This document shows positions 18,553 through 58,194 of a DNA stretch of 64,000 bases, in pieces; positions within the stretch are counted from its first letter, which is position 1; every line of letters begins with the position of its first letter. This DNA is from Metaphire vulgaris (Eukaryota; Annelida; Clitellata; Crassiclitellata; Megascolecidae). The stretch covers positions 12,113,794 through 12,177,793 of the forward strand of contig CM030840.1 of NCBI GenBank assembly GCA_018105865.1, read 5' to 3'. The notes under the pieces are model-generated. The model was not told the origin of the DNA, ran no database searches, and worked only from the letters and a program-made list of their open reading frames with translations. Both the position numbers and the translations under genes were made by a program.

Positions 18553-21500
18553 TTACTGCCTCGCTTGAATGCGGCGATCTCTTTCTTCTGCAATGGTCAG
18601 TCTGACACCTTTGTTTTTGAAGAGAGAAATCCACGGCTTGTTGCTTTTGCCAATAACAAAGACATTGTTCAATCTGAAAATAAACACATCAACAATTAAC
18701 AAATACAGTCTTACCGCATAATCTCACCCATATCGGCCAGAGATTCTATTTTGGCGAGGGCCGGTGACATAACTCAATTGCACAGATTGTACCTCTCTTT
18801 CTCAGGGCCTGATTCAGGTCCGAGTGGGCCTGGGGCTGAGAAAAAAAGGCAGTCGCCTATACTGAAAATCTCTGACCAGCAAAAAAGGGTATCTCCCTTC
18901 CAAATGGGCCGAGGGGCTACAGGCCTACAGCCCTCGCCTTAATATGGCCCTGCTCTTTCTTTCTCTCCCCCCATTTGTCTCAGTCTCTCTTTATCTCCCT
19001 CTCCTCTGCCTCTTGCTCTTCCCCTCTTGTGTGAATCCCCATTAGTGACAGGCAATTCACTTTCTGCGGAACTCCCGTCACTCAACCATACCGGCATAAG
19101 ACAATGGTGTGGACAAGATAACACGTGAAGACTGTATATCTAGAAATTATCAACAATTCAGCTAATTCATACCCAGCAAAGCACAAAATGCTTTTCTTAC
19201 TATTTACTAACTTATCTTTTAATATCTAGTCAATTACGTTTGAAAGAAGATCAGCAACCCTATTTCATTATCCAATAACCCCATTTTTAAGCAATCAAGG
19301 AGAAAGTGGGAGCCTATTTCACTCAAATAATGATGAAGTGCATAGAGACTGAATGGGTCACAACGCCAGATCTGAGTGATCATCACCAACACATTTATAT
19401 GCACACAACATTTTTTACAAATCATTAAAAGTTTCAAGCAATGTTGTTAACATTACGGATTGATGTGTCACAATAAACACACCAATATAGCGATGCAACA
19501 TTTCCTCTCCACAGTAAAAAACGCCAGAACAGCAACGCAACTGCGTATTCTGGAGCTGGACTGTGGCATTGGAAAACAAAGAATAAAGTCAGTCATACCG
19601 GTTGGAGTACAAGGGGGAATGTGCTTGGGATAGAAACCTACAAAAAGTCCTTGAGCCTTTTAAGGCTTGAACCCCACACCTAATGACTGGCCAATCAGTC
19701 CAGTCTTTTAATAGGAGTCCATTCAAATCAGATGCATAGAAACTGAATGGTCCACAAGGTTATGTTCTGAGCAGCCATTATTAACACAATTATATCCACA
19801 AGTCATTCCAAAAAATTATATAAAAATGTTAACCAATATGTTGTTAACATAACGAATTGATGTGTCACAACAAACACACCAATATAGCGATGCAACTTTT
19901 CCTCTCCACAGTATGAAACGCCAGAACAGCAACACAACTGCGTGTTCTGGAGCTGGACTGCGGCATTAGATTACAAACAATAAAGTCAGTCATACCGGGT
20001 GGCAAAACTGTGTCCTAACGAGTCCTTGATGTGAACAATGTCAAACGAGCCAGGGTGGCGTTCTCTGTGCGTAATCAATCCAACACGACCAATGTTGTGT
20101 CCACCGGTGATCATGCACACATTTCCTGAAATAGAAATTTAATATTAATAAGAACAATTTCAGCTGTTCAAATTACAAGACAATATTATTGCTGGTTGTG
20201 TACAAGATATGTATTACATCAAAACACTGATATGCAGTCAATTTAACACACTAACTGAATTACAGTGCAACATTATGTAGCTTATAATAAAGCAGTAATG
20301 CATCACTTCTTATCACCATCGAATTATTAAATCTTGCATGTCCAGTCACACTAGTCTGGTTTCACGCTTGGCAGCTATTTCCTTACAACTGTGCCTTCCT
20401 TTGTGCACCTATTTATTGATCCATCCATTTTTAAGCAAACCAAGAAGAAAGTAAGAATCTATTCCACTCAAATGGTGAAGCACATAGAGACTGAATGGGC
20501 TGCAATGCCCAATTTAAGCGGTCATCACCAACACATTTATATGTACATGTTATTTTTAACAATTAAAAGTTTCAAGCAATGTTGTTAACATTACGGATTG
20601 ATGTGTCACAATAAACACACCAAAATAGTGATGCAACAGTTACTCTCCACAGTAAAAAACGCCAGAAAACCAACGGAACTGCGTATTCTGGAGCTGGACT
20701 GTGGCATTAGATAACAAACAATAAAGTCAGTCATACCGGTTGGAGTACAAAGAGAAATGTGCTTGGAGAGAAACCGCCAAAAATCCTAGGCTCTATTAAG
20801 GCTTGAACCCTACACCTAATGACTGGCAAACCACTAGTCTTTTAACAGGAGTCCATTCAAATCAAATGCACAGAGACTGAATGGGCCACAAGGTCATGTT
20901 CTGAGCAGCCATCACTAACACATTTATGTCTACAAGCCATTCAAAAAATATAAAAGATTTTAATCAATATGTTGTTAACATAACGAATTGATGTGTCACG
21001 AATCGCACACACCAATATAGCGATGCAACACTTCCTCTCCACAGTATGAAACGCCAGAACAGCAACGCAACTGCATATTCTGGAGCTGGACTGTGGCCTT
21101 GGATATTAAACACTAAAGTCTTGTCAGCCATACCATATGGAAAAACTAATGACTGGCAAACAAGCTCAAATCACTATGCCAACAATCACCAAATTGATCA
21201 ACTTACCAGAATCAAACTTGATGAAATCGTCAATTTTCCCATTCTCGATGGTGATCTTAACTGTATCATTCACTTTGATCAAAGGATCTGGGTAACGAAT
21301 AGTGCGTCCATCACTGGTAACAATGCTTGGGACACCCTTCAGACCAACCATCACCTTCTTCACCTTACACAGCTTGTACTATTAACACAAATAAAATTTC
21401 CGTTCAAAACACTTTTTGCTTGAATTGGTACCACATTCATCATAATATAGAAAACTGTCAAAAATGCAGCCTTATTTCACATTCTTTGCAATTTAGGTAT

Positions 21501-23083
21501 TAAAAAAGAATAATTATCTAACCATTATTAACCCTTTCAACCAAGTGCAAATTCAACGCCACTATTCAACAGCAATCTAAGTTAAACGTCCACACACACA
21601 TCTCATCACACACATAAAAACATACACTTACATTATGAGTTAAGACTAGATGGAATGTTGATGTAGGTAAGACAACTGACTGATTAAGACAATATTTTTA
21701 ATCCATCACAGGATTAAAATAATTACTGTACCTTTGCCTCCTCAGCGGTGATTCTATGAATGGCAAATCTACCTTTGACATCATAGATTATACGGAAATT
21801 TTCATTCGTCTTTTCTATGGTTATGACATCTGAATAATTTAAAAAAATTAAATCAAAGACGTTCATTTGCACAAGTCCAAAGACGAGTGCAAAAAGAATT
21901 GTTTATTAAGTAATACCAATATAGAATAGAAATATATTATGAAATAACAAGTGACTGTGATAATCCATTTCTGTGAACTGAAGCATGAGTGGATTTTTAG
22001 ACAATGTAAGTTTCCTGAAGCCTCAATTCCTTAAATATAAAGATTCAACCCAAATATTTGAACTCTTTCCTAACACATAAAGCGATAAAATCCATTCTAG
22101 CTAATATCTGCATGAAGCCAGCAGCTTTTAGAGGACAATTGGGTAAATAATTACAGCATTCATATCCATGGTATGCATACCCATAAATCCAGCTGGGTAT
22201 GTCTTGTCAGTCCTAACTTTTCCATCAACTTTGATCAGCCTCTGGTTAAGTATCCTTTTTGCTTCATCATATGTCAAAGCATACTTCAAGCGATTTCTCA
22301 GGAAAATTGAAAGTGGGAGACATTCACGCAACTTGTGTGGACCACAGCTTGGACGTGGAGCCTGAAGCACAATAAAATTTATTCTTCAATAATACAATCA
22401 GTTCTATCAAATATCACAAACTGACTGCATTATTCAATATATAAAAACACTGCACAGCAACTGCAGATTCCAAAGCAAATCATTCAAACAAAGCACTAGA
22501 ATCAACAAAAATTTGGTGATACTGGTGGTTGCTTGCAACAAAAACTGATGCTGATAATATAAAAGGCTGCTGTTTGCACTTGCGCACACAAACACACACC
22601 ACACACGCGAAGGATAGTCACTGCCAAATCAAAGCATCTTAGTGCGCTGAATGCTATGCGATTCAATGCAAACAACAAAATATTTTGTAATCAATAAACT
22701 TACAAAAACTCCTCCAAGCTTATCCAACATCCAATGCTTGGGAGCATTGACACGCTTCAGGTGCTTCTTTGGGCCTCGAACCTAAAAATTCAACAAAACC
22801 TGCTACTAAAACATAGCAGAAAATATTGACTAGATCTACAATATGAGCATCATAAAAACTATAATAACAGCGACTACATACTTACAACTCGCGGTCTAAC
22901 AACGAATAAGAACGAGTGTCAAATCAGCACACAAGTTAAAGTGGTCAAAACCGATTAATAACTCACTCATCTAACATTCCTGACTTTTTATATATTTTAT
23001 TTCTTACGATCGAGTTAATGAAATCAATTCAAATCCAAAATAGAGCAATTCAAGTAACAATTTGAAAAAATTCATAATACCAT
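18553..23083 (-). CDS. RPS4: 40S ribosomal protein S4 (eS4)
   Basis: Seven coding exons on the minus strand: 23081-23083 (only the ATG), 22704-22781, 22181-22361, 21732-21829, 21207-21378, 19996-20125 and 18553-18673. They total 783 nt, 260 residues, against 263 in vertebrates. The protein is a structural component of the small ribosomal subunit. Visible blocks are [20 protein letters not shown] (RS4 N-terminus), [19 protein letters not shown] (S4 RNA-binding domain), [36 protein letters not shown] (KOW region) and [20 protein letters not shown] (C-terminus). All introns are GT-AG and in phase. The exon 3 donor was set at G|GTATGC because this restores GFMDVI. An intron directly after the start codon is usual for ribosomal protein genes. 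Introns 5 and 6 host four H/ACA snoRNAs. Confidence 0.96.
18803..18952. mobile_element. 150-bp hAT MITE in the last RPS4 intron
   Basis: CTCTTTCT occurs at 18795-18802 and 18953-18960. The ends are CAGGGCCTGATTCAGG and, inward from the right, CAGGGCCATATTAAGG. It is non-coding. Confidence 0.82.
19439..19570 (-). ncRNA. H/ACA box snoRNA, RPS4 intron 6, copy A
   Basis: About 132 nt. Hairpin 1 has an outer stem CCACAGT/ACTGTGG and an inner stem CCAGAA/TTCTGG with an internal loop between them, the usual pseudouridylation pocket. The H box is AGAGGA. Hairpin 2 pairs TTGGTGTG with CACATCAA above a second internal loop and TGTT with AACA at the base. ACA lies three bases from the predicted 3' end (ACATTG). 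H/ACA RNAs guide pseudouridylation with dyskerin and are commonly released from ribosomal-protein introns. The target is unknown. Confidence 0.85.
19836..19967 (-). ncRNA. H/ACA box snoRNA, RPS4 intron 6, copy B
   Basis: A paralogue of copy A with the same two hairpins, AGAGGA H box and an ACA box (ACATAT). The outer stem of hairpin 1 reads CCGCAGT/ACTGTGG, keeping pairing through one G-U. Its 5' end lies only about 30 nt downstream of the exon 6 donor. Confidence 0.85.
20577..20708 (-). ncRNA. H/ACA box snoRNA, RPS4 intron 5, copy C
   Basis: A paralogue most like copy A (ACATTG end, ATTACGGATTG on the plus strand). The H box is AGAGTA, still ANANNA. The CCAGAA/TTCTGG inner stem and CCACAGT/ACTGTGG outer stem are intact, but the apical loop of hairpin 1 has changed (CAGTTCCGTTGG). 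Confidence 0.82.
20967..21100 (-). ncRNA. H/ACA box snoRNA, RPS4 intron 5, copy D
   Basis: A paralogue most like copy B (ACATAT end, ATAACGAATTG on the plus strand). The H box is AGAGGA and both hairpins are intact, although the loop of hairpin 2 differs (GTGTGCGATTCGTGACAC). It lies about 107 nt downstream of exon 5. Confidence 0.84.
21379..22180. other. RPS4 introns 3 and 4
   Basis: Apart from exon 21732-21829 these introns show no snoRNA boxes, transposon ends or other features that I can support. Intron 2 (22362-22703) and intron 1 (22782-23080) are also plain. Confidence 0.45.
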
Positions 23084-23660: not shown

Positions 23661-23905
23661 ACAAAAAGTCGCCAGTAACTATGTATATAGTGCTCACTAG
23701 GTGGCACTACGCGTTACGAAACAGCAACGAATTGGAGATTCGCAATTTACACCCCTTTTCTTAGCAAGCTCCGGAGTTCTTATAACAGGCCTCTTCCAAT
23801 ATTAAGGGCCGATCGTGCTAGGCTATTGTCCAGCGTCCGGAACGATCGTTTCTGGTGAGCCTTGCAAACTCTCCAGTCCCAGGCTAAGGCCTGTGGCATT
23901 ACATA

Positions 23906-24415
23906 CACGGCTGCGGCCTCTCGGTGTCCTTGCGAGGTCACCCATTCAGCATACATACACGGCTGCGGCCTCGGTGTCCTTGCGAGGTCACCCATTCAGC
24001 ATACATACACGGCTGCGGCCTCTCGGTGTCCTTTGCGAGGTCACCCATTCAGCATACATACACGGCTGCGGCCTCTCGGTGTCCTTGCGAGGTCACCCAT
24101 TCAGCATACATACACAGCTGCGGCTACTCTGTGCCCTTGCGAGGTCACTCATTCAGCATACATACACGGCTGCGGCCTCTCGGTGCCCTTGCGAGGTCAC
24201 CCATTCAGCATACATACACGGCTGCGGCCCCTCGGTGCCCTTGCGAGGTCACCCATTCAGCATACATACACAGCTGCGGCTACTCTGTGCCCTTGCGAGG
24301 TCACTCATTCAGCATACATACACGGCTGCGGCCCCACGGTGCCCTTGCGAGGTCACCCATTCAGCATACATTACACAGCTGCGGCTTTTCTGTGTCCTTG
24401 CGAGGACACTCACTG
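23906..24415. repeat. 52-bp minisatellite, about ten units
   Basis: Units contain CACGGCTGCGGCCTCTCGG, CCTTGCGAGGTCACCCATTC and AGCATACATA and vary by single bases. Because 52 is not a multiple of three, all three plus frames stay open across the array. The resulting reading frames of 170-206 codons are repeat artefacts, not genes. Confidence 0.92.
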
Positions 24416-25500: not shown

Positions 25501-25987
25501 CTCTTAAAATTCACAAAGAACTATGTAGCTCTAAAAAGAACGGCAGAAGATAAGGAGAATCGGAGGAAAATATCTGCCAACCCTGTGGCAGAGGACAACA
25601 TATTTACGTGTGGCGAACTCTCCGAAATACCCCGGGGTAGGTTAATTCGAGAATGGCCTTAAACGTCTAAAATACGGGTCCCCACCCGGTCAGGCGTGGC
25701 CTTGCTTGTGAGAAACAACTAATATGAATCTTATCAATTCTTTAATAGTAACTTCATCAACAACATTGAACACTTATGCAGTAACGAGCAACTAGAGCAC
25801 AGCCCACTCGCAATACGTCAACTGTCGGTCATCAACTGATTATACTATAAAGCAGAACGTCTTATTTTACTATAAATGCCGAAAACACACGAATCACAAC
25901 CATAAATGAAATGACGATCCTTATATCGAAATCCCGAGTAGTCGAAACCGAACTTGCCAAAAGAGGGATCGAACAGAAGGCCTTTGA

Positions 25988-26360
25988 CGAACGACTAATG
26001 CAAAGGCGTCAATCGTGAAACCTATGTAAGTACCTCGGCTACTAAGTGAACTGTCGAACAACTAATGCAAAGGCGTCAATCGTGAAACCTATGTAAATGC
26101 CTTGCTTCCTAAATGAACTGTCGAACAACTAATGCAAAGGCGTCAATCGTGAAACCTATGTAAATATCTCGATTACTAAATGAACTGTCGAACAACTAAT
26201 GCAAAGGCGTCCTATGTAAATACCTTGCTTACTAAATGAACTGTCGAACAACTAATGCAAAGGCGTAAATGAATGTCGAACAACTAATGCAAAGGCGTCG
26301 ATCATGAAACCTATGTAAATATCTTGCTTACTAAATGAACTGTCGAACAACTAATGCAAG
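25988..26360. repeat. 67-bp tandem repeat in Gypsy-1 3' LTR
   Basis: CGAACAACTAATGCAAAGGC recurs at 25988, 26055, 26122, 26189, 26245, 26277 and 26344: four intervals of 67 bp and two shortened units (56 and 32 bp). The array is repeated at 33658-34030 in the other LTR. Confidence 0.9.
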
Positions 26361-26565
26361 GGCTTCTTTGTCCGAGATGCAACGCACCACAAAAAAAGAA
26401 CAGCCACACCTACAGATAAACACAGCATCAAAACATTTACATTCGCAAGCAAACAACAACAAAAAAAACATCCTTAGACAGTTCTACTTTACGCAGAAAT
26501 TTTTGCTGCGGGAGTTCGTTCTCCGAATCCAGCTAAGCTGGAGCCCGAAGCGGGACTTGGAAATG

Positions 26566-27332
26566 CTCTCGAAGAGCTGCTCAGCCGAAGCTGGGAGAAG
26601 TGCTCACGAAGAGCTGCTCAGCCGAAGCTGGGAGAAATGCTCACGAAGAGCTGCTCAGCCGAAGCTGGGAGAAATGCTCACGAAGAGCTGCTCAGCCGGC
26701 TGGGAGAAATGCTCACGAAGAGCTGCTCAGCCGAAGCTGGGAGAAATGCTCACGAAGAGCTGCTCAGCCGAAGCTGGGAGAAATGCTCACGAAGAGCTGC
26801 TCAGCCGAAGCTGGGAGAAATGCTCACGAGGAGCTGCTCAGCCGAAGCTGGGAGAAATGCTCACGAAGAGCTGCTCAGCCGAAGCTGGGAGAAATGCTCA
26901 CGAAGAGCTGCTCAGCCGAAGCTGGGAGAAATGCTCACGAAGAGCTGCTCAGCCGGCTGGGAGAAATGCTCACGAAGAGCTGCTCAGCCGAAGCTGGGAG
27001 AAATGCTCACGAAGAGCTGCTCAGCCGAAGCTGGGAGAAATGCTCACGAAGAGCTGCTCAGCCGAAGCTGGGAGAAATGCTCACGAAGAGCTGCTCAGCC
27101 GAAGCTGGGAGAAATGCTCACGAAGAGCTGCTCAGCCGAAGCTGGGAGAAATGCTCACGAAGAGCTGCTCAGCCGAAGCTGGGAGAAATGCTCACGAAGA
27201 GCTGCTCAGCCGAAGCTGGGAGAAATGCTCACGAAGAGCTGCTCAGCCGAAGCTGGGAGAAATGCTCACGAAGAGCTGCTCAGCCGAAGCTGGGAGAAAT
27301 GCTCACGAAGAGCTGCTCAGCCGAAGCTGGGA
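26566..27332. repeat. 37-bp minisatellite in Gypsy-1 3' LTR
   Basis: About 20 units containing GAAGCTGGGAGAAATGCTCA and CGAAGAGCTGCTCAGCC. Two visible units lack AA in CCGAAGCTGG. Since 37 leaves remainder one on division by three, all forward frames are open, giving spurious proteins of 259-334 residues. Confidence 0.95.
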
Positions 27333-28250
27333 TCGGTAAGTATCAACTTACGGGAGCCCGTTTCCGAACTGCCGACTGAGGCGCGTTCTCGCGTTTATAT
27401 AGCCTCTGAAGGGGAGCGGAAGTAGAAGGGGCTTCGGCGAATGACAAGACGCCAGCGATCTGAGATACGGAACCTTGTCCAATGACAACCGGAGTCTGAA
27501 AAGTAGGGTCACGTGACCGAGGAATGGAGCGTTCTGATTGGTCGTAACGTTAAACGTCCATTGACATTTCAATAACAAATATCTAAATAATTAATGCGAA
27601 ATGAATCTTAAATATGACAAAATCGGAGTCAGAAAGGCGTGGGCTTTCGACTGATAGTTTACATGGGCCTTAAAGTGGTCTAGAAGCCGCAATTCGAGAG
27701 ATCGGATTTTAGCAAAACCACGTTAACACCGACGGCACAAATGTGGCCATAACTTCTTAAATAATCGTCCTAAAAATCTTAATTACATATACGATTACAT
27801 AATAATAAACCGTGCATTGTCCTATACGACTGGTTTTGTGCAAAAATATGTACATAGCGCACAAAAAGGGAGTATAGAAACGGCGCATGGCCATGAACAA
27901 AAATCGTTCAAAGCTCTCGAAATATGTGGTCCACAAGCTTCAAAGTCACTTTCGCTTGAGAGCAGGATTATTTCTGATCGTATTTTAGGGATTTCATAGG
28001 CGGATGGCTAATATTTGTTCAAAAATGAGTGTTTTGAAATCATAATGTATAAGAGCGTATCGGGAGAACCCCGTAGGAGCGCGGCCAAGAAAAACCGTAG
28101 ATTAGCGTAGCCGCGTATATAACTATACTAAAGAATGCAAATTCTCCACAACACCCCCGACTCAGAACGTGAACGCCCTCGTTCACAGTCGAACACATGT
28201 AACCAAACGATACATTAACTAAGAGGGGTAATTTTCGCGCGGTCGTAGCC

Positions 28251-31200
28251 CTAACGGTACCGCGAAGGCGGTTGGAGACGATCGCGGGGTCGTAGGTGGC
28301 GGGCGCCTGCGTCTTCTCTAGTCGGAGTTGGACTCCTCGCGGGTGCATCGTCCGCGTCGACGGTGATGTTTGACGGTTCCGTGTCGCGGTTCGTGGACGA
28401 TTCGGCAACCCCGTCGTTCTGTCCTGACGCCGTGCGGTACGGGATCAGCTTGTCCACGTGAACAACGAAAGAACGTCCTCTAGGAAGCTTCTGCACGAGA
28501 TAGTTCAAAGGACCGGTCTGTCTAACCACCTCGAACGGCCCTTGATAGAATTTCTCCCATTTCGGGTAGTGGTGACGTCGCTTCCTGGGGACGAACACCC
28601 AAACCTTCTCTCCGACGGCGAAGCGTTGAGCACGCACCTTCATATCGTACCCTTTCTTACGCTTCTTAGCCGCTGCACTCAGGTTCTGGCGTACTAGTTC
28701 ATAGGCATACTGAAGCGTCTCCCTTAACTCCATGGCATAATCGGTCTGGTCGGTATATCGGTGGCCTGGAGGAGGACCATACACAATATCCACCGGCATG
28801 ACATTTTCACGCCCGAAAACGAGAAAGTTTGGCGAATAACCGGTGCTCACATGCACCGACGCCCTATAGGCCGCGGCCACTACTGGCAAGACCTCGTGCC
28901 AGTTGCGGTGATTGTCAGCCACCATCTTGCCTAGCATCTGGTTCATGGTGCGGTGGTAGCGCTCGATGAGACCGTTCGTCCGGGGCTCATAGCTGGTAGT
29001 CCGCACTTTCTCGATGCCTAAGAGTTTGCACATCTCTGCGAACACGCAGGACTCGAAACTAGGACCTCGGTCAGAGAGGATCCTCAAGGGGGTGCCGAAC
29101 ACGGCGCAGATTCGCTCGACGATGATCTTCGCCAGCGTCTCCGCTTCCTGGTTGCGGATCGGTACAGCCTCCACGAATTTCGTGAAATAGTCCATCATCG
29201 TGAATATGTACAGGTGGCCTTTACTAGACCTTGGATGAGGACCGGTTACGTCAACGGACAGAATTTCCCATGGTGCCCCACAGGGAATAGGACAAAGCTT
29301 CGCCTGTTTCGGGGGGCGTCCTTGGCGATACCGGGCACAGTCTTCGCAGGACCTGCAGAAGAGGAGTGTGTCCTTGGACCACCCTGGCCAGTAGGCCCTC
29401 TGGCGAACCTGCATGCGAGTACGACGCACTCCCATGTGACCGCCGGTCATTCCGGAGTGACACATCCTGAGAAAACCATGGCGCAGCTTTCCGGGCATCA
29501 TCAACTGGCGAACCCCGTCTGTGCGTTCTCGATACATCACGCCGTCAACGAAGATTATCTGTTCTTGCATGTGCCATAGCTTCTTCACTTTCTCATCTGC
29601 GGTGAGGATCTCAGAAAGTTCGGGCGCCCCATCGGTCTTCCAGCGGCTTAAAATCCCCAAGAGAGGGTCGGCAATCTGTTCAGAGGCCATCGTTGAACCG
29701 ATGGGAATGCTGCAAATGTCTGATCCAGATTCGACGCGACCATCCTTCACTGCAGCTACTATTAGTTCTACGCCGGGCTCGGGTCGTCGTGATAGAGCAT
29801 CAGCGTTTGCATGCGACCGGCCTGGGCGATGGATAACCTTAAACTGAAACTCGGATAGTCTCTCTTGCCAACGGGCCTGTTGTCCGATCGGATCAGGCGT
29901 TCTTTGTAGCCACTGGAGGGCGGCGTGATCTGTCCTTAAAGAAAAAGGACGACCAAGCAGGTACACCTTGAAGTATTTTACAAAGTAAACGATCGACAAA
30001 AGCTCACGACGCGTCGTGCAGTAATTGCGTTCGGCCTTGGATAGAAGTCTGCTACCGTAAGCGAGGACAACCTCTGTTCCGTTCTGACGTTGAGAAAGGA
30101 CAGCACCTATGGCAAAGTCCGACGCGTCGGTATCGAGAACAAACTCGTCTTCATCGTTTGGAAGACCTAGGATGGGGGCGGACATCAGCCTCTCCTTAAG
30201 TTCTTCGAATGCGACCTGCCTTTCGTCGTTCCACTCGTATTTGACTCCCTCTCTTGTGAGCTGACTCAAAGGATCCGTAACGTCTGCAAAGCCGTGAATA
30301 AACCTCCGATAATATGAACAGAGCCCTAGAAAGGAGCGGAGCTCTTTCAAATTCCTGGGCGCAGGCCAAGTACGGACCTTCTCCACCTTAATAGGATCCA
30401 TAGAGATACCGTCACACGACACGACGTGGCCTAAAAAGTCGACCTTCTGACTCATTAAGCGACATTTTGCAACGTTCAACTTAAGGCTGGCTTGACGCAA
30501 GCGCTGGAATACTTCTCTCAGATGTCGTATGTGTTGATCTGGCGAAGCAGCAAAGACGATAACGTCGTCCAGGTAAACAAGACAGGCGCTAAAATTGAGT
30601 CCTGTCAATATTAAATCCATTGTTCTCTGGAAAGTTGCCGTGGCTCCGGATAGTCCCATGGGCATACGCTTCCATCGAAAGGAGCCCATTCGTGTGACAA
30701 ATGCTGTCTTGTCTGCGTCATCCGGGCTCATGGCTATCTGATGGTAGCCACTTTTAAGGTCGAGAGTACTGAACCACTTAGCGCCGGTTAAAGCATCAAG
30801 ACAGTCATTTATTTTCGGCAGTGGATACGCGTCGCCACGTGTCACCGCGTTAAGCGAGCGATAGTCCAAGCAGAATCTAAGCGTCCCGTCTTTCTTTTTG
30901 GCTAAAACAACGTTAGACGCCCATTCGCTTTTGGCAGGTTCGATCAATTCGTCCTCCAACATCTGTCGAACATTGTCATCGATGACCTCGCGATAGACTC
31001 TTGGATGAATACGTAGAGGTTGCCGAACCGGACGGGAGTCTCCGGTGTCTATACGATGCTGCGTTATCTCACAGCGTCCTAGGTCAGTCTTACCCTGAGA
31101 GAATACATCCTGGAATTCTAGAACTAGGTCCTTCAATTTGGTCTTGGCTTCCTCGGGAAGGTTATCATCTACCTTCTCCAACAGCAATTCTACGGTACTT

Positions 31201-33137
31201 TTGGCTTGTGCGGTTTCGTCGGGCGCTTTAATGCGCATCCCTTCGATAGCTTCCGCCGGGTGCAGGTCTCCGAGGAGCTCCTGTTCACAGATCCTAGCGG
31301 GCTCGCCGCGAGTGTTTATGACCCTTATCATGGTATTTCCGGTCTTTGCGCCCAAAAGTATTCGCGCAGCATGGAGGCCTGGACGGATCTCACGATGTTC
31401 CATCATCCACTCAGAGGAAGCGGGCGGCTCCGTCGTTCCCCCGACGATCTTCGAAGGTACGTCCATTTGGGAAAAGGGAGGAATTTCCACGTTGTTTACA
31501 ACTTGTACGCGGCGACACCATCCCGTTCCATTCTTCTTCACAAGGGGCAGCTGTTGTCGGCCTACGAAAAGTTTCCCTTTTGCGAAGCTCAGACCGCACT
31601 TGTTGGCGTTCATGAACTCCATGCCGAGCATGACTTCGTTAACCTGCTCGGAGACGACGAACGTAGTCAGCCGTTTGCAATGCCGATTGAAACTTACGTT
31701 AATTGTCACTTCCCCGCTAACTTTAATCCTGCTGCCATTAGCGGCGTACAGCTTCCTCGAAGTGGGATTGAGAGGCGCGTTGCTCGCTATCGAAAGCGGG
31801 AGCAAGTTAATCTCTGAGCCGGTATCTAGTAGGCTCAGACAGTCAGACCCGTTAATTCGGCAACGTACGTATAAAGATTGTGCGCCTTTCGACTCGGCAG
31901 AGCGCGCGGTGGTGTTGAAGTTCACGGAAGTCGTGTTTTCCCTCGGCCTACGCGGAGCCTTGCAGTTTCTACTCAAGTGTCCAAGTTGCTCACAGTTGTA
32001 GCAACGGAGTGTGCGAGGACGGTCGGATGACGGCGTTCCACGGTCGACACCCCCGACTCGTTGAGTGCTTAAGCGAACGGGTCCTTCAGGCCGTCCTTGG
32101 TGATGGCGCTCGAGGTCTGCCTTATTGCGAGGCGCGGAAGCTTGAGCTTGCGGGAACATCCTTTCCTCTATGGAACGCATCCATTGTTCTTGGTTTTGGC
32201 GTCGTATTTCTTCATTCTTTAGTTGTGTCTCCATGAAATCCTTCATCTGAGCGGACATCTGAGCGACTGCGTCTTCTTGCCTGGCTGCTCGCACCTGTCT
32301 ACGAGGTTCGCGTCCGCGGAACTCTGAAGAGTCGTGATCTCTTAACGACCTCTTATACGTCTCAAGTCGTACTGCAGTGCGGAACGTCTCGTCTAAAGAC
32401 CTAGGCTCTCTCTCGCGAACCTTCATCGACAATTCGCTATCCATCATTGCGTCTAGAAAGGCGTCCCTAGCGATTGCCTCAGTGGTTTCGCTGGCAGGAG
32501 CCGGGTAGGCTAAGGTCACTAGACGTCGAATGTCATGCAGAAGATCTGCAAGGCTTTCACGGTCTCTTTGTCGTCGGCACCTTAACTGCGTGCGAAACGT
32601 CTCGGCCTGTGACTCGAGTCCGTAACGTTGGCGCAATCGTTGGGTGAGGTCCTCGTAAGTGCAGTCCGCGCTGGAACCGAAGTCCCAGAGGAGTTGGACT
32701 GCAGACTTGTCCAATGCACACTGGAGAAAGTCGGTCTTCTCCCTCATCGTCCACCGGTTGTGATTCGCACATACTTCGAATTGCTTCAGGAAGGATTCCA
32801 AAGAACCCGTCCCGTCGAATCTTCCTGGCTTCATAAACTGCTTTCTGTCAGATGGACGGCTTTCGAACTGCGCGGGAGGAACCACTTCCCTAGCGGCGAG
32901 CTGCGGTCTCTCTTCGATGGGCTCGTCAAGTACTGACAACTCATCTGGATGACGTCTGCGTGCGGAAAGGTAAGACCTCTCCAGCGCTGAGATACGATCG
33001 AGGGTAGGCGGCTCCGATGCGAAGGAAGACTTCGGAGGTTCCTCTTTGGCAGCTTGTTCCACGAACCAACCATTGTCCAGGTCGAGCAAGTTATAGCGCA
33101 TGGGCGAGCGTTCATGGGGCTCCATATCAGGGGACAA
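28251..33137 (-). CDS. Gypsy-1 Gag-Pol polyprotein (1628 aa)
   Basis: One uninterrupted frame. In order: a Gag-like N-terminus (about 100-260), a CCHC zinc knuckle CYNCEQLGHLSRNC (about 379), aspartic protease LLDTGSEINLLP (about 436), reverse transcriptase with YLDDVIVF (about 854), RNase H DTDASDFAIGAVLSQ (about 1000), an integrase zinc-binding region followed by the catalytic core with D in SVDVTG (about 1293), D in LSDRGPSF (about 1355) and E in LIERYHRT (about 1390), and a C-terminal RGRSFVVHVDKLIPY. This is the Ty3/Gypsy order (RT before integrase). All catalytic residues I can check are present. Gag and Pol are fused without a frameshift. The true start could be slightly downstream of the first ATG. 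Confidence 0.95.
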   Translation of the reverse strand: MSPDMEPHERSPMRYNLLDLDNGWFVEQAAKEEPPKSSFASEPPTLDRISALERSYLSARRRHPDELSVLDEPIEERPQLAAREVVPPAQFESRPSDRKQFMKPGRFDGTGSLESFLKQFEVCANHNRWTMREKTDFLQCALDKSAVQLLWDFGSSADCTYEDLTQRLRQRYGLESQAETFRTQLRCRRQRDRESLADLLHDIRRLVTLAYPAPASETTEAIARDAFLDAMMDSELSMKVREREPRSLDETFRTAVRLETYKRSLRDHDSSEFRGREPRRQVRAARQEDAVAQMSAQMKDFMETQLKNEEIRRQNQEQWMRSIEERMFPQAQASAPRNKADLERHHQGRPEGPVRLSTQRVGGVDRGTPSSDRPRTLRCYNCEQLGHLSRNCKAPRRPRENTTSVNFNTTARSAESKGAQSLYVRCRINGSDCLSLLDTGSEINLLPLSIASNAPLNPTSRKLYAANGSRIKVSGEVTINVSFNRHCKRLTTFVVSEQVNEVMLGMEFMNANKCGLSFAKGKLFVGRQQLPLVKKNGTGWCRRVQVVNNVEIPPFSQMDVPSKIVGGTTEPPASSEWMMEHREIRPGLHAARILLGAKTGNTMIRVINTRGEPARICEQELLGDLHPAEAIEGMRIKAPDETAQAKSTVELLLEKVDDNLPEEAKTKLKDLVLEFQDVFSQGKTDLGRCEITQHRIDTGDSRPVRQPLRIHPRVYREVIDDNVRQMLEDELIEPAKSEWASNVVLAKKKDGTLRFCLDYRSLNAVTRGDAYPLPKINDCLDALTGAKWFSTLDLKSGYHQIAMSPDDADKTAFVTRMGSFRWKRMPMGLSGATATFQRTMDLILTGLNFSACLVYLDDVIVFAASPDQHIRHLREVFQRLRQASLKLNVAKCRLMSQKVDFLGHVVSCDGISMDPIKVEKVRTWPAPRNLKELRSFLGLCSYYRRFIHGFADVTDPLSQLTREGVKYEWNDERQVAFEELKERLMSAPILGLPNDEDEFVLDTDASDFAIGAVLSQRQNGTEVVLAYGSRLLSKAERNYCTTRRELLSIVYFVKYFKVYLLGRPFSLRTDHAALQWLQRTPDPIGQQARWQERLSEFQFKVIHRPGRSHANADALSRRPEPGVELIVAAVKDGRVESGSDICSIPIGSTMASEQIADPLLGILSRWKTDGAPELSEILTADEKVKKLWHMQEQIIFVDGVMYRERTDGVRQLMMPGKLRHGFLRMCHSGMTGGHMGVRRTRMQVRQRAYWPGWSKDTLLFCRSCEDCARYRQGRPPKQAKLCPIPCGAPWEILSVDVTGPHPRSSKGHLYIFTMMDYFTKFVEAVPIRNQEAETLAKIIVERICAVFGTPLRILSDRGPSFESCVFAEMCKLLGIEKVRTTSYEPRTNGLIERYHRTMNQMLGKMVADNHRNWHEVLPVVAAAYRASVHVSTGYSPNFLVFGRENVMPVDIVYGPPPGHRYTDQTDYAMELRETLQYAYELVRQNLSAAAKKRKKGYDMKVRAQRFAVGEKVWVFVPRKRRHHYPKWEKFYQGPFEVVRQTGPLNYLVQKLPRGRSFVVHVDKLIPYRTASGQNDGVAESSTNRDTEPSNITVDADDAPARSPTPTREDAGARHLRPRDRLQPPSRYR

Positions 33138-33255
33138 TTATTGCGCAATGATAAGGCTCAAAATGCAATTTATAATGTGCGTGTATATGTGTGTGTGCTC
33201 ATACGGAGTAACAGAACTGCGTCCTCAGATAACCATAAATAACTCACAAGCAACT

Positions 33256-33275
33256 GGACCCCACTTCTGGTACCA
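33256..33275 (-). promoter_or_regulatory. Gypsy-1 primer binding site (tRNA-Leu type)
   Basis: Three bases inside the 5' LTR, the minus strand reads TGGTACCAGAAGTGGGGTCC. It is complementary to a tRNA ending in CACTTCTGGTA-CCA; a leucine tRNA with this kind of acceptor stem is the best match I know. The same start is used by Gypsy-2. Confidence 0.7.
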
Positions 33276-33278
33276 ATT

Positions 33279-35824
33279 TGTGGCGAACTCTCCGAAATAC
33301 CCCGGGGTAGGTTAATTCGAGAATGGCCTTAAACGTCTAAAATACGGGTCCCCACCCGGTCAGGCGTGGCCTTGCTTGTGAGAAACAACTAATATGAATC
33401 TTATCAATTCTTTAATAGTAACTTCATCAACAACATTGAACACTTATGCAGTAACGAGCAACTAGAGCACAGCCCACTCGCAATACGTCAACTGTCGGTC
33501 ATCAACTGATTATACTATAAAGCAGAACGTCTTATTTTACTATAAATGCCGAAAACACACGAATCACAACCATAAATGAAATGACGATCCTTATATCGAA
33601 ATCCCGAGTAGTCGAAACCGAACTTGCCAAAAGAGGGATCGAACAGAAGGCCTTTGACGAACGACTAATGCAAAGGCGTCAATCGTGAAACCTATGTAAG
33701 TACCTCGGCTACTAAGTGAACTGTCGAACAACTAATGCAAAGGCGTCAATCGTGAAACCTATGTAAATGCCTTGCTTCCTAAATGAACTGTCGAACAACT
33801 AATGCAAAGGCGTCAATCGTGAAACCTATGTAAATATCTCGATTACTAAATGAACTGTCGAACAACTAATGCAAAGGCGTCCTATGTAAATACCTTGCTT
33901 ACTAAATGAACTGTCGAACAACTAATGCAAAGGCGTAAATGAATGTCGAACAACTAATGCAAAGGCGTCGATCATGAAACCTATGTAAATATCTTGCTTA
34001 CTAAATGAACTGTCGAACAACTAATGCAAGGGCTTCTTTGTCCGAGATGCAACGCACCACAAAAAAAAGAACAGCCACACCTACAGATAAACACAGCATC
34101 AAAACATTTACATTCGCAAGCAAACAACAACAAAAAAAACATCCTTAGACAGTTCTACTTTACGCAGAAATTTTTGCTGCGGGAGTTCGTTCTCCGAATC
34201 CAGCTAAGCTGGAGCCCGAAGCGGGACTTGGAAATTCTCTCGAAGAGCTGCTCAGCCGAAGCTGGGAGAAGTGCTCACGAAGAGCTGCTCAGCCGAAGCT
34301 GGGAGAAATGCTCACGAAGAGCTGCTCAGCCGAAGCTGGGAGAAATGCTCACGAAGAGCTGCTCAGCCGAAGCTGGGAGAAATGCTCACGAAGAGCTGCT
34401 CAGCCGGCTGGGAGAAATGCTCACGAGGAGCTGCTCAGCCGAAGCTGGGAGAAATGCTCACGAAGAGCTGCTCAGCCGAAGCTGGGAGAAATGCTCACGA
34501 GGAGCTGCTCAGCCGAAGCTGGGAGAAATGCTCACGAAGAGCTGCTCAGCCGAAGCTGGGAGAAATGCTCACGAAGAGCTGCTCAGCCGAGCTGGGAGAA
34601 ATGCTCACGAAGAGCTGCTCAGCCGAAGCTGGGAGAAATGCTCACGAAGAGCTGCTCAGCCGAAGCTGGGAGAAATGCTCACGAAGAGCTGCTCAGCCGG
34701 GCTGGGAGAAATGCTCACGAAGAGCTGCTCAGCCGAAGCTGGGAGAAATGCTCACGAAGAGCTGCTCAGCCGAAGCTGGGAGAAATGCTCACGAAGAGCT
34801 GCTCAGCCGAAGCTGGGAGAAATGCTCACGAAGAGCTGCTCAGCCGAAGCTGGGAGAAATGCTCACGAAGAGCTGCTCAGCCGAAGCTGGGAGAAATGCT
34901 CACGAAGAGCTGCTCAGCCGAAGCTGGGAGAAATGCTCACGAAGAGCTGCTCAGCCGAAGCTGGGAGAAATGCTCACGAAGAGCTGCTCAGCCGAAGCTG
35001 GGATCGGTAAGTATCAACTTACGGGAGCCCGTTTCCGAACTGCCGACTGAGGCGCGTTCTCGCGTTTATATAGCCTCTGAAGGGGAGCGGAAGTAGAAGG
35101 GGAGGCTTCGGCGAATGACAAGACGCCAGCGATCTGAGATACGGAACCTTGTCCAATGACAACCGGAGTCTGAAAAGTAGGGTCACGTGACCGAGGAATG
35201 GAGCGTTCTGATTGGTCGTAACGTTAAACGTCCATTGACATTTCAATAACAAATATCTAAATAATTAATGCGAAATGAATCTTAAATATGACAAAATCGG
35301 AGTCAGAAAGGCGTGGGCTTTCGACTGATAGTTTACATGGGCCTTAAAGTGGTCTAGAAGCCGCAATTCGAGAGATCGGATTTTAGCAAAACCACGTTAA
35401 CACCGACGGCACAAATGTGGCCATAACTTCTTAAATAATCGTCCTAAAAATCTTAATTACATATACGATTACATAATAATAAACCGTGCATTGTCCTATA
35501 CGACTGGTTTTGTGCAAAAATATGTACATAGCGCACAAAAAGGGAGTATAGAAACGGCGCATGGCCATGAACAAAAATCGTTCAAAGCTCTCGAAATATG
35601 TGGTCCACAAGCTTCAAAGTCACTTTCGCTTGAGAGCAGGATTATTTCTGATCGTATTTTAGGGATTTCATAGGCGGATGGCTAATATTTGTTCAAAAAT
35701 GAGTGTTTTGAAATCATAATGTATAAGAGCGTATCGGGAGAACCCCGTAGGAGCGCGGCCAAGAAAAACCGTAGATTAGCGTAGCCGCGTATATAACTAT
35801 ACTAAAGAATGCAAATTCTCCACA
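33279..35824 (-). repeat. Gypsy-1 5' LTR (2546 bp)
   Basis: Promoter-bearing LTR of the minus-strand element. The TATA box is at 35065-35073, the predicted start near 35035, and a candidate ATTAAA signal at 33411-33416. The GTTATTGAAATGTCAATGG region upstream would be U3. The open frames across the array are artefacts. Confidence 0.93.
34235..35004. repeat. 37-bp minisatellite in Gypsy-1 5' LTR
   Basis: Counterpart of the array at 26566-27332, with its variant units at different places (CCGGCTGGG near 34405, CCGAGCTGG near 34588, CCGGGCTGG near 34698). The two LTR arrays have therefore changed independently since insertion. Confidence 0.95.
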
Positions 35825-47212: not shown

Positions 47213-48697
47213 CTAACTGCCATCTTCCAGGTCCTAAAGTGCACATAATCAAATACATCATCATCATCATCATCATCATTTCCTCTTTCCTTCATTATTT
47301 GAAGATGAGGTGACGTCATGAATCAGGCATTTCCAGGTAGTTCTTTCTTTAGATGCTTTTATTGCTGTTGTTATAGCCATTCCAGTCCATTCTTCTATGT
47401 CGTCCACCCATCTTCTGTTCGGCCGACCTCTTTTTCTTTTTCCTGGCATGATACCTTGTTGTATTGTTTGCTGTAGGCTATCTTTGTTGTTTCTTTGTAT
47501 ATGACCAAAATAACTCAATTTTCGTCTTTGGCAGATGTTAAAGAATTTTCGTTTGGTATTTGCTTTTTTCATGACTTCTTCATTTGTTTGTTTTTCTGTC
47601 CATGATATTCTTTGCATTGTTCTGAGAGAAAACATTTCGAAGGCATCTAGTCTTTGTCTTATTTTCTTTTGATGGTCCAGCTTTCACATCCATAAGTTGC
47701 TACACTCCATGCCATACATTCCATTAATCTTCCTTTGTTTTTCATGCTGATTTTGTTGCTTTTCCAGACAGTTTTAATCTCCTCATTACTTCTCTGCCTT
47801 TTCCTAATCGTGAGTTTATTTCTTCTTCAAGATTTCCATTACTGCTGATTATTGCTCCTAGATATGTGAATTTGTCCACCTGTTCAAGATTCTTTTCATT
47901 AACAATAATCTTAATTTTCTTTCCATTTGTTGTCATTACTTTTGTTTTAGTTTCATTAAGGTGTGTAGGCCATATTTTTTGCTTTCCAAACTTATTCTGT
48001 CAACCAGTTGCTGTAATTCTTCTTCTGATGTTGCTATTAGGATTATATCATCAGCATATCTCAAATTGTTGAATGTTTTTCCTCCTAATTTGACCCTCCT
48101 TTAAATCCATTTAATGCATTTCTCATTATCATTTCTGATATGATGTTAAATAGGAATGGTGATAATATGCAACCTTGCCTAACACCTTTTCTAATTCTAA
48201 ACCAGTCTGTTATTATGTCATTGATTTTATTGCTCCTTTTTGATTTTTATACAAATTCATTAGAAGATGTACTAGATGTGCTGAAATCCCATATCTAGCA
48301 TGACATACCAGAGCTTTTCATGAGAGATAGAATCAAAGGCTTTTGTATAATCTATAAAGCACATGTACAATGGTTGTTGATATTCTTTTGCTTTTTCCAT
48401 AATAATTCTGAGATTGGTTATTTGATCTCTAGTTCCTCTCCCTTTTCTAAAACCAGCTTGTTCTTCTGCCACTTCATCCTCCATCTTTTTGTCAATTCTA
48501 TTCAGTATTATTCGAAGCATGACTTTGCTTATATGTGCTATCAATGCAATGGTTCTATAATTTGTGCATTCTTTCCTATCACCTTTTTTTGGTATTGGAA
48601 TGAATATTGATTTTAGCCAGTCATTAGGCCATTCTCCAGTCTGCCATATTTTACAACATAATTTATGAATTATGTTAACTGCTCCATCTTGTCCTAG

Positions 48698-49302
48698 TTC
48701 AACGACTCTGGGGGGGACACCCTCTATTTCTACCAACTCCCCTCCTAAATCTCGTTCCCCTAGAGCGGCTCCTTCCTCCCTCCCCTGACCCGATGTCGTT
48801 CGTCCGCTGGGTTCCCTTAGTTGATGATAACCGAGAGATAATGGATAAGACTGTCTTGGTTTTAACATGTGATTATTATTAACATTATAAGGCTTCCAAT
48901 AAACATATAACAATCGTCAAGGCTGTCTAAATGTGAACTAAACGAATTTATTCTACGACCACTACGCAATACAGAATTAGTATTAAACTTCTTACCATCA
49001 CCACTCGCTCCTGCTCCGTCCTTGGATCTCCCTGTCCTTCCGATCCGTCCTTTCTTCTTTAGCATCCAGGTCTTTCCCGCTGACCGCGTCTTCCCGCGTC
49101 TCCAGCAGACCTACCTCGGCCGCAACGCCAACCAACCAACCAACGACGACCAACGACTCCACGACCAACCTCTACCCGCGCTTCCCTCTTTTATAAGCTC
49201 CGCTCTGGCACGCCGCCATCTCCTTCGGCCTCTCCATTCTCTACCAGCGCCGGCCTTTCCTCTCCGTCTTATTCTCCATCTCCTTCTCCCCTACCCGTTC
49301 AA
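48698..49302 (-). repeat. Gypsy-2 3' LTR (605 bp)
   Basis: On the minus strand it begins TTGAACGGGTAGGGG and ends CCAGAGTCGTTGAA, so it lacks the usual TG...CA ends; boundaries are set by the CTAG duplication. TATA box CTTATAAAAG (48 bp of T-rich sequence around 49188-49197) and an AATAAA signal at 48947-48952 place R between them. Confidence 0.9.
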
Positions 49303-50351
49303 CTCTCTCACTGTTTAAACCAAAACCCATCTTCCATCCGATCCATACTTAGTAACAAATATAAAATTGACATGCTAAACTGTATATTAAATGTTAAATC
49401 GGAATTGTCTCTTGATAGTGTTGTTTCGGCCTAAACATATATTTCGATTCTATAATGCAATCTGGCTGCTAATGTAAATTATTATATAGCTCTAACATAC
49501 TGTGGTTGCGTCTGCTGTCTGGCGTCTCAGCTGGTTGTCGTTCTCCATCGTGATACTTGGGATCGGCATCCGCAACGCTCCTGACGGCGCCCGCGTATCC
49601 ACTGCTCTGGCTGGGTCTCCCGAAGGGCTTCCGACTGAAGCTGGTCGGATACTGCCAACCGTCGACATCGTCCCGAGGCTTGGACGGGACGTCGCCATCG
49701 TCCTCGGCGGCGTGATCTTCAGCGTCCGCTCTCTCCGTGTCTCCGCCTCCTCCTCTGCCCGACTTCCATGACGTCGGATCCCATCGCCTGTCAATCACTT
49801 CTGTCGCCTTCGCTATGTCTGCGTCTGCAAATACATACTACAGAGGCAAATTTACTCTCCCCTCCCCACCCTTTTTTCAAATTCGGGGTGCATTCACCTT
49901 CTCCTCCTTTGCCTTCCAGCAAATCTTCAACATCCTCTTATCTCTTTTCACGATCTACTCTTGCCCTGAGGGATCTCATTTTCCCCTTTACTAACCATTA
50001 TGATACTTACTCACTCCTCTATTTTCCTGTACATACCTATTTATCTTCTATTTCTGTTGCTTAAATTTCTACTTACTTATTTACTTCATTTGTAGTCCTT
50101 TCTGTTTCTACGCTATTCCTTAATGCTATATAACCTTTCAGAATGGATTCTGCTTAACCTCCTCTTACTGTCCCAACAGTATCATGCACTATACATATAT
50201 ATATATATATACAGTTACAGCTATTTCTACCCGCGTTTCTTGAATTTATTTTTTTTTTATTGACTTTTTCTGACAACATAGGTCCTAAACAGTTCTATCT
50301 TAATTTTATATACAATGCACGTCTAAATATTCTGTATCCTTTCCGTTATTT
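49303..50351 (-). other. Gypsy-2 3' region between pol and LTR
   Basis: This holds no recognisable envelope. Two overlapping minus frames (49492-49794, 100 codons; 49469-49798, 109 codons) are rich in Arg, Asp, Ser and Pro and resemble nothing that I know. An AT run lies at 50193-50210. The polypurine stretch next to the LTR reads AGTGAGAGAG on the minus strand. Confidence 0.45.
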
Positions 50352-56443: not shown

Positions 56444-57048
56444 TTCAACGACTCTGGGGGGGACACCCTCTATTTCTACCAACTCCCCTCCTAAATCTCG
56501 TTCCCCTAGAGCGGCTCCTTCCTCCCTCCCCTGACCCGATGTCGTTCGTCCGCTGGGTTCCCTTAGTTGATGATAACCGAGAGATAATGGATAAGACTGT
56601 CTTGGTTTTAACATGTGATTATTATTAACATTATAAGGCTTCCAATAAACATATAACAATCGTCAAGGCTGTCTAAATGTGAACTAAACGAATTTATTCT
56701 ACGACCACTACGCAATACAGAATTAGTATTAAACTTCTTACCATCACCACTCGCTCCTGCTCCGTCCTTGGATCTCCCTGTCCTTCCGATCCGTCCTTTC
56801 TTCTTTAGCATCCAGGTCTTTCCCGCTGACCGCGTCTTCCCGCGTCTCCAGCAGACCTACCTCGGCCGCAACGCCAACCAACCAACCAACGACGACCAAC
56901 GACTCCACGACCAACCTCTACCCGCGCTTCCCTCTTTTATAAGCTCCGCTCTGGCACGCTGCCATCTCCTTCGGCCTCTCCATTCTCTACCAGCGCCGGC
57001 CTTTCCTCTCCGTCTTATTCTCCATCTCCTTCTCCCCTACCCGTTCAA
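56444..57048 (-). repeat. Gypsy-2 5' LTR (605 bp)
   Basis: Same length and sequence as 48698-49302 apart from one substitution. The TATA box is at 56934-56943. It is followed immediately downstream by the primer binding site. Confidence 0.9.
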
Positions 57049-57964
57049 CTAGTTTTAATAATTCTATAGGGACATCATCAATCCCTGCTGCTTTTTTGTT
57101 TGCTGTTTTCCTCATAGCTTCTTCTACCTCAGATCTCAAGGGGAGAGGTTCAAAGTCTTTCCTATTGTTATTTGGATGTGTGTTTATTTCTTCCATGCTT
57201 TTATATTCCATTTCTCCATCAAACAATTCATTTCCATATTCCTTCCATCTGTCTGCTATCATCTTTTTATCAGATAACATTAAACCATTTTTTGCTCTAA
57301 TACATTGCATTTTTGGAGCAAATTTCTTAGTCAGATCCTTTAATTTTTCATATGTTCATCTGCTATTTCCTCTTTTTGCTTGTTCTTCCAGTTCGTTGCA
57401 GATGCTATTGATTTGTTGGTTTTTGTCTTTTCTTAAGTTCTTTTGTACCTCTTGTTTTATCTTTTTGTATTGATGTTGTTCTACCGGTGTGGTTGCATTT
57501 TTCAATCGCCTTTTTTCTGCAACTAGCCTCCAGGTATCTGATGTTATCCATTCTTTGTTCTTACTTTTTTGTTTCTTCTGTAGATTTTGTGCTGCCGTCT
57601 CCTTTATTATGTTTTTTATGTCTTCCCATAATTCATCAGGTGTTTTTTCTTCTTGTACATTTTGTAATATTTCAAACCTATTCTGCACTTCCATTGAATA
57701 TTCATCGGTGTCTTTATCCAAGTTATACTTGATAGGTTGCTGTGGTTTCTTTAATTTTTTTAGTCGTATCTTGATAACTGCCACTAGTAGTTGGTGGTCA
57801 CTATTAATATCTGCCCCAGGGTAAGTTTTACAGTTCATCACAATTCTTCTCCATCTATCATTTGTTAAAATGTAATCTATTTGATTTTTTTTTGAATCAA
57901 ATACACCGCTATATAAACAAATACACATTCTTAATATCTTTATCACATGATACAGCCTTTCCGT

Positions 57965-58063
57965 ACTTCCGGCTGAGGTCGTGTGAAGAATTTCCGTTAG
58001 AATTTCAAATAAAATTCCTATTTTAAAATTTAATTTAATAAGTCTCCGTCTTGATTCGTAGAG
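57965..58063 (+). promoter_or_regulatory. Probable promoter and non-coding exon 1 of the HNRNPK-like gene
   Basis: ACTTCCGGCT at about 57966 is an ETS-type motif typical of TATA-less housekeeping promoters. About 95 bp later GTAGAG|GTAAGT (donor at 58064) is a strong 5' splice site. The next acceptor on this strand with a good context is TTTCAG at 60891-60896, which opens the start exon. No cDNA evidence is available here. Confidence 0.4.
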
Positions 58064-58194
58064 GTAAGTTCGTTGTTAATGGAAGTGAATGTATCTAATC
58101 GAATTTTGCGAAACTAGAGGCGAATTTGATTTTAAAATGCACCCATTTTCACTTATCAAAATGGCGCAGGTTCCTTGTTAATATAATATAATAA

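Follow-up and report, generated by a model that had tools for sequence, protein, structure and literature searches.

Two pairs of probable H/ACA snoRNA genes in consecutive RPS4 introns of Metaphire vulgaris

Multiple clusters of H/ACA genes within introns are reportedly the subject of a Drosophila paper of 2004, and another paper on clusters is said to have followed in 2005. The prevailing rule in animals is described as one snoRNA per intron (PMC1821038, PMC11028025). The initial annotation of the DNA studied here had called two per intron unusual, in agreement with this rule, and the arrangement is unusual in animals, yet it has precedent in the intronic snoRNA gene clusters reported from rice and Drosophila (PMC2780460). 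The mfl gene of Drosophila is described with four isoforms of a C/D snoRNA, one gene per intron (PMC1821038), whereas four H/ACA isoforms lie here as two pairs in two introns. According to PMC8178906, all expressed members reside in one host in only 7.3% of human H/ACA families. In chicken, almost all snoRNA paralogues are attributed to duplication within one gene (PMC2653536). A brief search of the literature found no published report of snoRNAs in an RPS4 intron or of the present arrangement.

Guides of the sites discussed below have been described in several organisms. Yeast 25S Psi2944 is guided by snR37, and the site is listed as PTC (PMC8307265). Yeast snR37 and human ACA10/SNORA82 are listed guides of the same LSU site as the one predicted here (PMC8307265, PMC2653536, PMC2780460). 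They are mentioned as functional equivalents only. Chicken GGgACA30, the cognate of human E3, is listed for 28S-3976 with its 5' hairpin (the snR37 site) and for 28S-3875 with its 3' hairpin (the E3 site). Human E3 is stated in the same source to have lost the other functions (PMC2653536).

In Metaphire vulgaris, four units in RPS4 are very probably intron-encoded H/ACA snoRNA genes. They would be paralogues of one guide, co-transcribed with RPS4, and would guide pseudouridylation of LSU rRNA.

Units in two consecutive RPS4 introns

The window, that is, the whole stretch of DNA analysed, comprises 64,000 nucleotides. Five coding exons of RPS4 were joined on its minus strand (18553-22361), with GT/AG borders and a frame that is open to the stop. 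The joined exons represent the coding part without a traced start-codon exon. The best 120 of 7992 matches of the protein show 55-90% identity. Two unnamed metagenome proteins head the matches listed (90% and 88%), and the named ones include Paralvinella (annelid, 82%), Lineus (nemertean, 81%), and Saccoglossus (hemichordate, 82%). The two introns that carry the units are consecutive, and each holds two units in the same sense as RPS4. The copies are named A to D in transcript order. The initial annotation used the plus-strand order, so that A is its D, B its C, C its B, and D its A. The exon borders below come from exon joining.

21207-21378, minus strand: RPS4 coding exon 5' of the snoRNA introns
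20126-21206, minus strand: upstream RPS4 intron with copies A and B, 1081 nt, GT...AG
20967-21098, minus strand: first predicted H/ACA snoRNA of the upstream intron, copy A, 132 nt
Parts of copy A, minus strand: 5' guide 21089-21084, 3' guide 21053-21046, H box 21038-21033, ACA 20972-20970
20577-20706, minus strand: second predicted H/ACA snoRNA of the upstream intron, copy B, 130 nt, with the hinge AGAGTA
19996-20125, minus strand: RPS4 coding exon separating the two snoRNA introns
18674-19995, minus strand: downstream RPS4 intron with copies C and D, 1322 nt, GT...AG
19836-19965, minus strand: first predicted H/ACA snoRNA of the downstream intron, copy C, 130 nt, 30 nt past the 5' splice site of the intron
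19439-19568, minus strand: second predicted H/ACA snoRNA of the downstream intron, copy D, 130 nt
18553-18673, minus strand: last coding exon of RPS4

The initial annotation had described four minus-strand units of two hairpins in the sense of RPS4, with an ANANNA hinge and an ACA three bases from the end. The present analysis bears out this description for units of 130-132 nt within 19439-21098. Two hairpins and the hinge are present in 4/4 copies, the hinge reading AGAGGA in A, C, and D and AGAGTA in B. The ACA lies three bases from the 3' end in 4/4 copies, the 3' end itself having been set by that rule. The 3' ends read ACATAT in copies A and C and ACATTG in B and D. In both hairpins, the distance from pocket to box is 15 nt (alignment columns 46-60 and 112-126), in agreement with the rule of 14-16 nt between the pseudouridylation pocket of H/ACA RNAs and their H or ACA box. 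The 5' hairpin has the lower stem CCACAGT/ACTGTGG and an upper stem that starts CCAGAA/TTCTGG. Between them lies the 5' pocket, formed in DNA letters by CCAGCT and CGTTTCAT or CGTTTTTT, and in RNA letters by CCAGCU with CGUUUCAU or CGUUUUUU. The 3' hairpin consists of the lower stem GTTGCAT/ATGTTAAC, with one bulge, and the upper stem TTGGTGTG/CACATCAA.

Folding of the units is more stable than that of dinucleotide shuffles, with z-scores of -2.7, -3.8, -3.4, and -4.1 for A, B, C, and D. The shuffles that fold as well number 2, 0, 0, and 0 of 200 per copy. The free predicted fold pairs part of the 5' pocket, and the open pocket is the form assumed with the target bound. A covariance model built from the four copies recovered these four alone in the 64-kb window at E up to 10 (151.8-162.5 bits). 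The short guide pattern matched four times, against 0.00 expected from 100 shuffles. No further copy of the unit, the tail, or the spacer was found in the window.

Predicted rRNA targets and related guides

The pockets were scanned against rRNA of other eukaryotes, namely the SSU and LSU of contigs L007 and L013 (the LSU of L013 is cut at its 3' end) and the LSU of contig L010. These contigs are filed under bacterial MAGs and were found by a pattern that contains the later target. Since the pattern contains the target, conservation of the target across the three contigs proves nothing; its rank among all uridines is what carries evidence. The initial annotation had proposed a search of the pockets against rRNA and snRNA of the same species. 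In the rRNA of other eukaryotes used here, the 5' pocket found a strong and specific target in all three LSU sequences. In the strict scan with stacking energies, GGGAACG-U-G-AGCUGGG was the best site for all four copies in each LSU. The energies were -23.65 kcal/mol for A and C and -23.3 kcal/mol for B and D, and the runner-up in any of the five rRNAs reached -13.2. These energies include three lower-stem bases. On rescanning with the pocket bases alone, the target was still first at -21.0 and -20.65 (6+6 and 8+6 pairs), and the next strict site stood at -13.2. In relaxed registers, the target stays at the top in the LSU sequences, but the gap is smaller. With the lower-stem bases included, rival sites for copy D reach -20.9 in L010 and -20.5 in L013, and none goes beyond -15.35 when the guide is limited to its pocket bases. 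Shuffled 5' pockets reached the score anywhere in the SSU and LSU of L007 (1376 uridines) in 3 and 2 of 2000 cases, and in 10 and 4 of 2000 with the pocket alone. The difference between CGTTTC and CGTTTT among the copies keeps the pairing with this target (C-G to U-G). A shared 28S target of all four copies is therefore well supported as a prediction.

By its position, the predicted target is equivalent to yeast 25S pseudouridine 2944, because the spacing fits Um2921, Gm2922, Psi2923, Am2946, and Cm2948. In L010 and L013, the target U is preceded by UGU at 23-21 nt and followed by A at 2 nt and by C at 4 nt. The upstream spacing in L007 is off by one.

The 3' pocket behaves differently. The strict scan of the rRNAs gave scattered weak sites and no convincing target. 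A relaxed scan, which allows up to two unpaired nt per side, places the uridine of the E3 site (CCAAGCGU-U-C-AUAGCG) at rank 1 in L010 and rank 3 in L007, A/C and D alike. When only the pocket bases are used, the ranks in L010 and L007 are 1 and 1 for A/C and 2 and 3 for D. The 3' pockets of A, C, and D form 6-7 + 3-4 pairs at this site, in the relaxed scan only, and other sites score nearly as well. Copy B fits poorly, with ranks 30 and 22. The exact E3-site pattern is absent from the 3'-cut LSU of L013. Shuffles reached the score at the E3 site in 33 (A/C), 35 (D), and 1154 (B) of 20000 cases, and with the pocket alone in 40, 91, and 1174 of 20000. As a positive control, the 3' pocket of the SNORA63 consensus has its top site at the E3 uridine in L007 and L010, which hold the exact site. 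The two sites are 101 nt apart in L010 (3622 and 3723) and 100 nt in L007. The 3' pockets of A, C, and D may thus address the E3/SNORA63 uridine, 101 nt upstream of the 5' target. This assignment is tentative because the relaxed scan was chosen once the strict scan had failed. Three copies (A, C, and D) would accordingly combine intact apices with a plausible second target. As an aside, yeast m3U2843 is listed 101 nt before Psi2944 (PMC8307265), and, by arithmetic only and if there is no indel, would correspond to the U addressed by E3 in chicken.

Assignment to a described family is less direct. The initial annotation had also proposed a covariance-model search of Rfam. At gathering thresholds, it gave no match in the whole window, and the nearest families lie below these thresholds. 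The best match is ceN36-1 (RF01627) on copy B, with 36.4 bits against a gathering score of 48 and an E-value of 4e-4 in a search of 3.3 kb. SNORA63 (RF00092) matches copy D over the whole length of the model with 24.7 bits, against a gathering score of 90, and SNORA41 matches all four copies weakly (20.9-24.3 bits against 80). An E-value scan of the whole window did not list the snoRNA matches of the 3.3-kb search, presumably owing to stricter filters for long input. It returned a weak match to U85 and, near 40.6 kb in a simple repeat, one miRNA match and one C/D match. Among viral contigs, 42 loci carry the pocket pattern, and the four-copy model found no credible copy in any of the 42 (best 15.4 bits, E 0.39).

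The nematode ceN36-1 resembles the units in its consensus 5' pocket: the guide letters are near-identical, and the top target is the same one in the three LSU sequences. The 3' half matches poorly, and the comparison of targets covers the 5' pocket. Like SNORA63/E3, each unit is a two-hairpin H/ACA RNA of about 130 nt. Unlike SNORA63, the units reside in RPS4 instead of EIF4A2 and number four, and the 3'-side pairing of the 3' pocket has 3-4 pairs, weaker than the 9 of SNORA63. The 5' pocket of the SNORA63 consensus has no listed match at the 2944 site. Chicken GGgACA30 is listed with both predicted sites, which are assigned to the 5' and 3' hairpin in the same way and lie 101 nt apart, as in L010. 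The 5' pocket pairing is longer here, with 6+6 or 8+6 pairs compared with 4+7 in chicken (PMC2653536). GGgACA30 is also listed with a third site, 28S-1612, and the likeness rests on the other two. The four units are probably E3-like double guides, because the chicken cognate of E3 is listed for both sites; their scores for SNORA63 and ceN36-1 are below gathering. An E3-like H/ACA guide would thereby be added to a window in which the curated thresholds of Rfam annotate nothing. Since its two predicted targets are also those listed for a chicken snoRNA, such a double guide may be old in animals.

The following course of events is proposed from these features. The RPS4 transcript would carry all four snoRNAs, and each would be freed from its spliced intron. 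The freed RNA would join the H/ACA core proteins, which are dyskerin, NHP2, NOP10, and GAR1. Its 5' pocket would pair with GGGAACG-U-G-AGCUGGG, and the U at the equivalent of yeast 2944, in the peptidyl transferase region, would be isomerised. The 3' pocket of A, C, and D would probably address the E3/SNORA63 uridine. We infer transcription, processing, and modification from the anatomy and the complementarity described above. The layout also suits the question of whether one intron can release two H/ACA RNAs.

Divergence and duplication of the copies

The initial annotation had stated that changes between the copies keep the stems. This is mostly so, as 4/70 paired columns vary in the four-copy alignment, compared with 21/62 unpaired columns. 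However, its example, CCACAGT to CCGCAGT, is a one-sided change (A-U to G-U), and copy B breaks two of 35 pairs, both apical (U-U and G-G). None of the 35 pairs is changed on both sides among the four copies, and 383 of 500 shuffles reach the covariation score. Support for the stems comes from their conservation, from folding, and from the match of the guide, and not from covariation.

The snoRNA part diverges less than the tail that follows it. It has fewer mismatches in all six copy pairs, significantly so in 5/6 (p 3e-4 to 9e-10), the six comparisons being non-independent. Copies C and D differ at 9/128 positions in the snoRNA and at 53/140 in the tail (p 9e-10), and B and D at 7/128 and 29/144 (p 3e-4). 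For A and C, 10/130 against 20/138 falls short of significance (p 0.08). Copy A has 5 substitutions that occur in no other copy, B has 6, C has 4, and D has none.

These counts bear on whether all copies are in use. Only one or some of them may function, with the others being redundant or decaying pseudo-snoRNAs, and B would be the likeliest to be failing. Copy B has the two broken apical pairs and an H box changed to AGAGTA, which is still ANANNA. Furthermore, the fit of its 3' pocket at the E3 site is equalled by about 6% of shuffles. Copy B is also more changed than its partner D, with six substitutions of its own against none, and may therefore be decaying or relaxing. Its 5' pocket and both lower stems are nevertheless intact, and its energy at the 5' target equals that of D (-23.3). 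The low mismatch of B and D in the snoRNA relative to the tail (7/128 against 29/144) hints at constraint on B and does not show it, because 6 of the 7 B-D differences are unique to B. On balance, a partly functional set is rather unlikely, and four H/ACA genes, paralogues of one guide, are the preferred reading.

As another reading, hairpin-rich repeats of mobile or other origin could resemble H/ACA RNAs by chance. The units stay below the Rfam gathering scores, and the spacer contains GGTTCAAGCC, which we take to resemble a tRNA B box, as in some SINEs. On the other hand, chance would hardly bring together the boxes, the 15-nt pocket spacing, and a single outstanding rRNA target, the window holds no other copy of the unit, tail, or spacer, and conservation is higher in the snoRNA part than in the tail. 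Chance resemblance is strongly disfavoured and hardly credible beside H/ACA snoRNA genes. A C/D snoRNA in the tails, suggested by GTGATGA after B and D, was rejected by eye: there is no shared D box, and the sequence after C reads ATAATGG.

Block A-B matches block C-D at 85.5% over 732 nt, and between single units that differ in position the match is 79%. Together with the shared 3' ends, ACATAT and ACATTG, this bears out the proposal of the initial annotation that a pair was duplicated as a block. The sequences between the units are as follows.

21099-21133, minus strand: leader of copy A, GTATGGCTGAC, a diverged form with 5 extra nt, behind an apparent inter-copy spacer remnant
20737-20966, minus strand: A-B tail and spacer, the last 99 nt (20835-20737) 84% as in the C-D spacer
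20707-20736, minus strand: leader of copy B, 29/30 bases as in C, with a duplicated decoy-like 5' splice site within the intron
19966-19995, minus strand: leader of copy C, the intron 5' splice site GTATGACTGAC plus 19 nt
19599-19835, minus strand: C-D tail and spacer, in which 39 nt ahead of the decoy splice site (19637-19599) may form an in-frame cryptic exon
19569-19598, minus strand: leader of copy D, 26/30 bases as in C, with a duplicated decoy-like 5' splice site within the intron

The GTATGACTGAC that stands 30 nt ahead of B and D repeats, without a change, the 11 bases with which the downstream intron opens. We infer an order of two steps. A unit with its 5' splice-site leader would have lain at the start of the downstream intron and undergone tandem duplication inside that intron. 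The two-copy block would then have been copied into the neighbouring upstream intron. Gene conversion or another order of duplication is possible, because the leader of C is closer to that of B than to that of A. The four-copy layout with its duplicated splice-site leaders offers a clear case for the multiplication of intronic snoRNAs by recombination within one gene.

The decoy sites also allow a different view of the two units per intron. If a cryptic exon in the spacer ahead of B and of D were spliced in, some transcripts could again have one snoRNA per intron. The decoy donor GTATGACTGAC lies 30 nt before both copies, and the 39-nt segment of the downstream intron keeps the RPS4 frame open. 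However, the acceptor AG of such an exon is absent from the upstream intron, which reads TTTTTGGCGG at the matching place. An open, in-phase frame of 39 nt is fairly frequent by chance, and 13 residues would be inserted into a highly conserved ribosomal protein. Restoration of one snoRNA per intron is thus very unlikely. A shade less likely still is that RPS4, through alternative splicing via the spacer, alternates between two introns that bear snoRNAs and four, and in this way adjusts how much is made of a guide for the peptidyl transferase centre.

For the 39-nt segment itself (19599-19637, minus strand), which runs from TTTTTGTAG to the decoy site before D, the frame is open, the RPS4 frame is kept, and 13 residues would be encoded.

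Other features of the window and the rRNA contigs

No tRNAs were found in the window, and matches to bacterial-type promoters are without meaning here. Twelve contigs filed under bacterial MAGs (L002-L013) contain the exact eukaryotic-type 28S pattern. Rfam calls eukaryotic LSU rRNA in the 7 of these 12 that were scanned, and L007 carries a group I intron. Eukaryotic contamination of those MAGs is likely because of the LSU calls in these 7 contigs.

A tandem array at 23900-24409 consists of 52-nt units in 9.8 copies with 90% matches, and three plus-strand frames are open through it. By eye only, the frames at 48272-48916 and 56987-58075 resemble those of LINEs. A pair of direct repeats of 607 nt (48698-49304 and 56444-57050, 99.8% identical) flanks minus-strand gag-pol-like frames that extend over several ORFs. 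The only ORF scanned between these repeats, 51193-53364, has matches to RT, RNase H, and integrase. Another pair of direct repeats (25609-28150 and 33279-35824, 2.55 kb, 99.4% identical) delimits an LTR-type retrotransposon. Each of these repeats contains a 37-nt minisatellite of 21 copies that is open in three frames. The element between them (28251-33137, minus strand) holds a frame of 1628 aa with matches to a zinc knuckle, protease, RT, RNase H, and integrase. Since the direct repeats are 99.4% identical, the retrotransposon at 25609-35824 appears to be a recent insertion.
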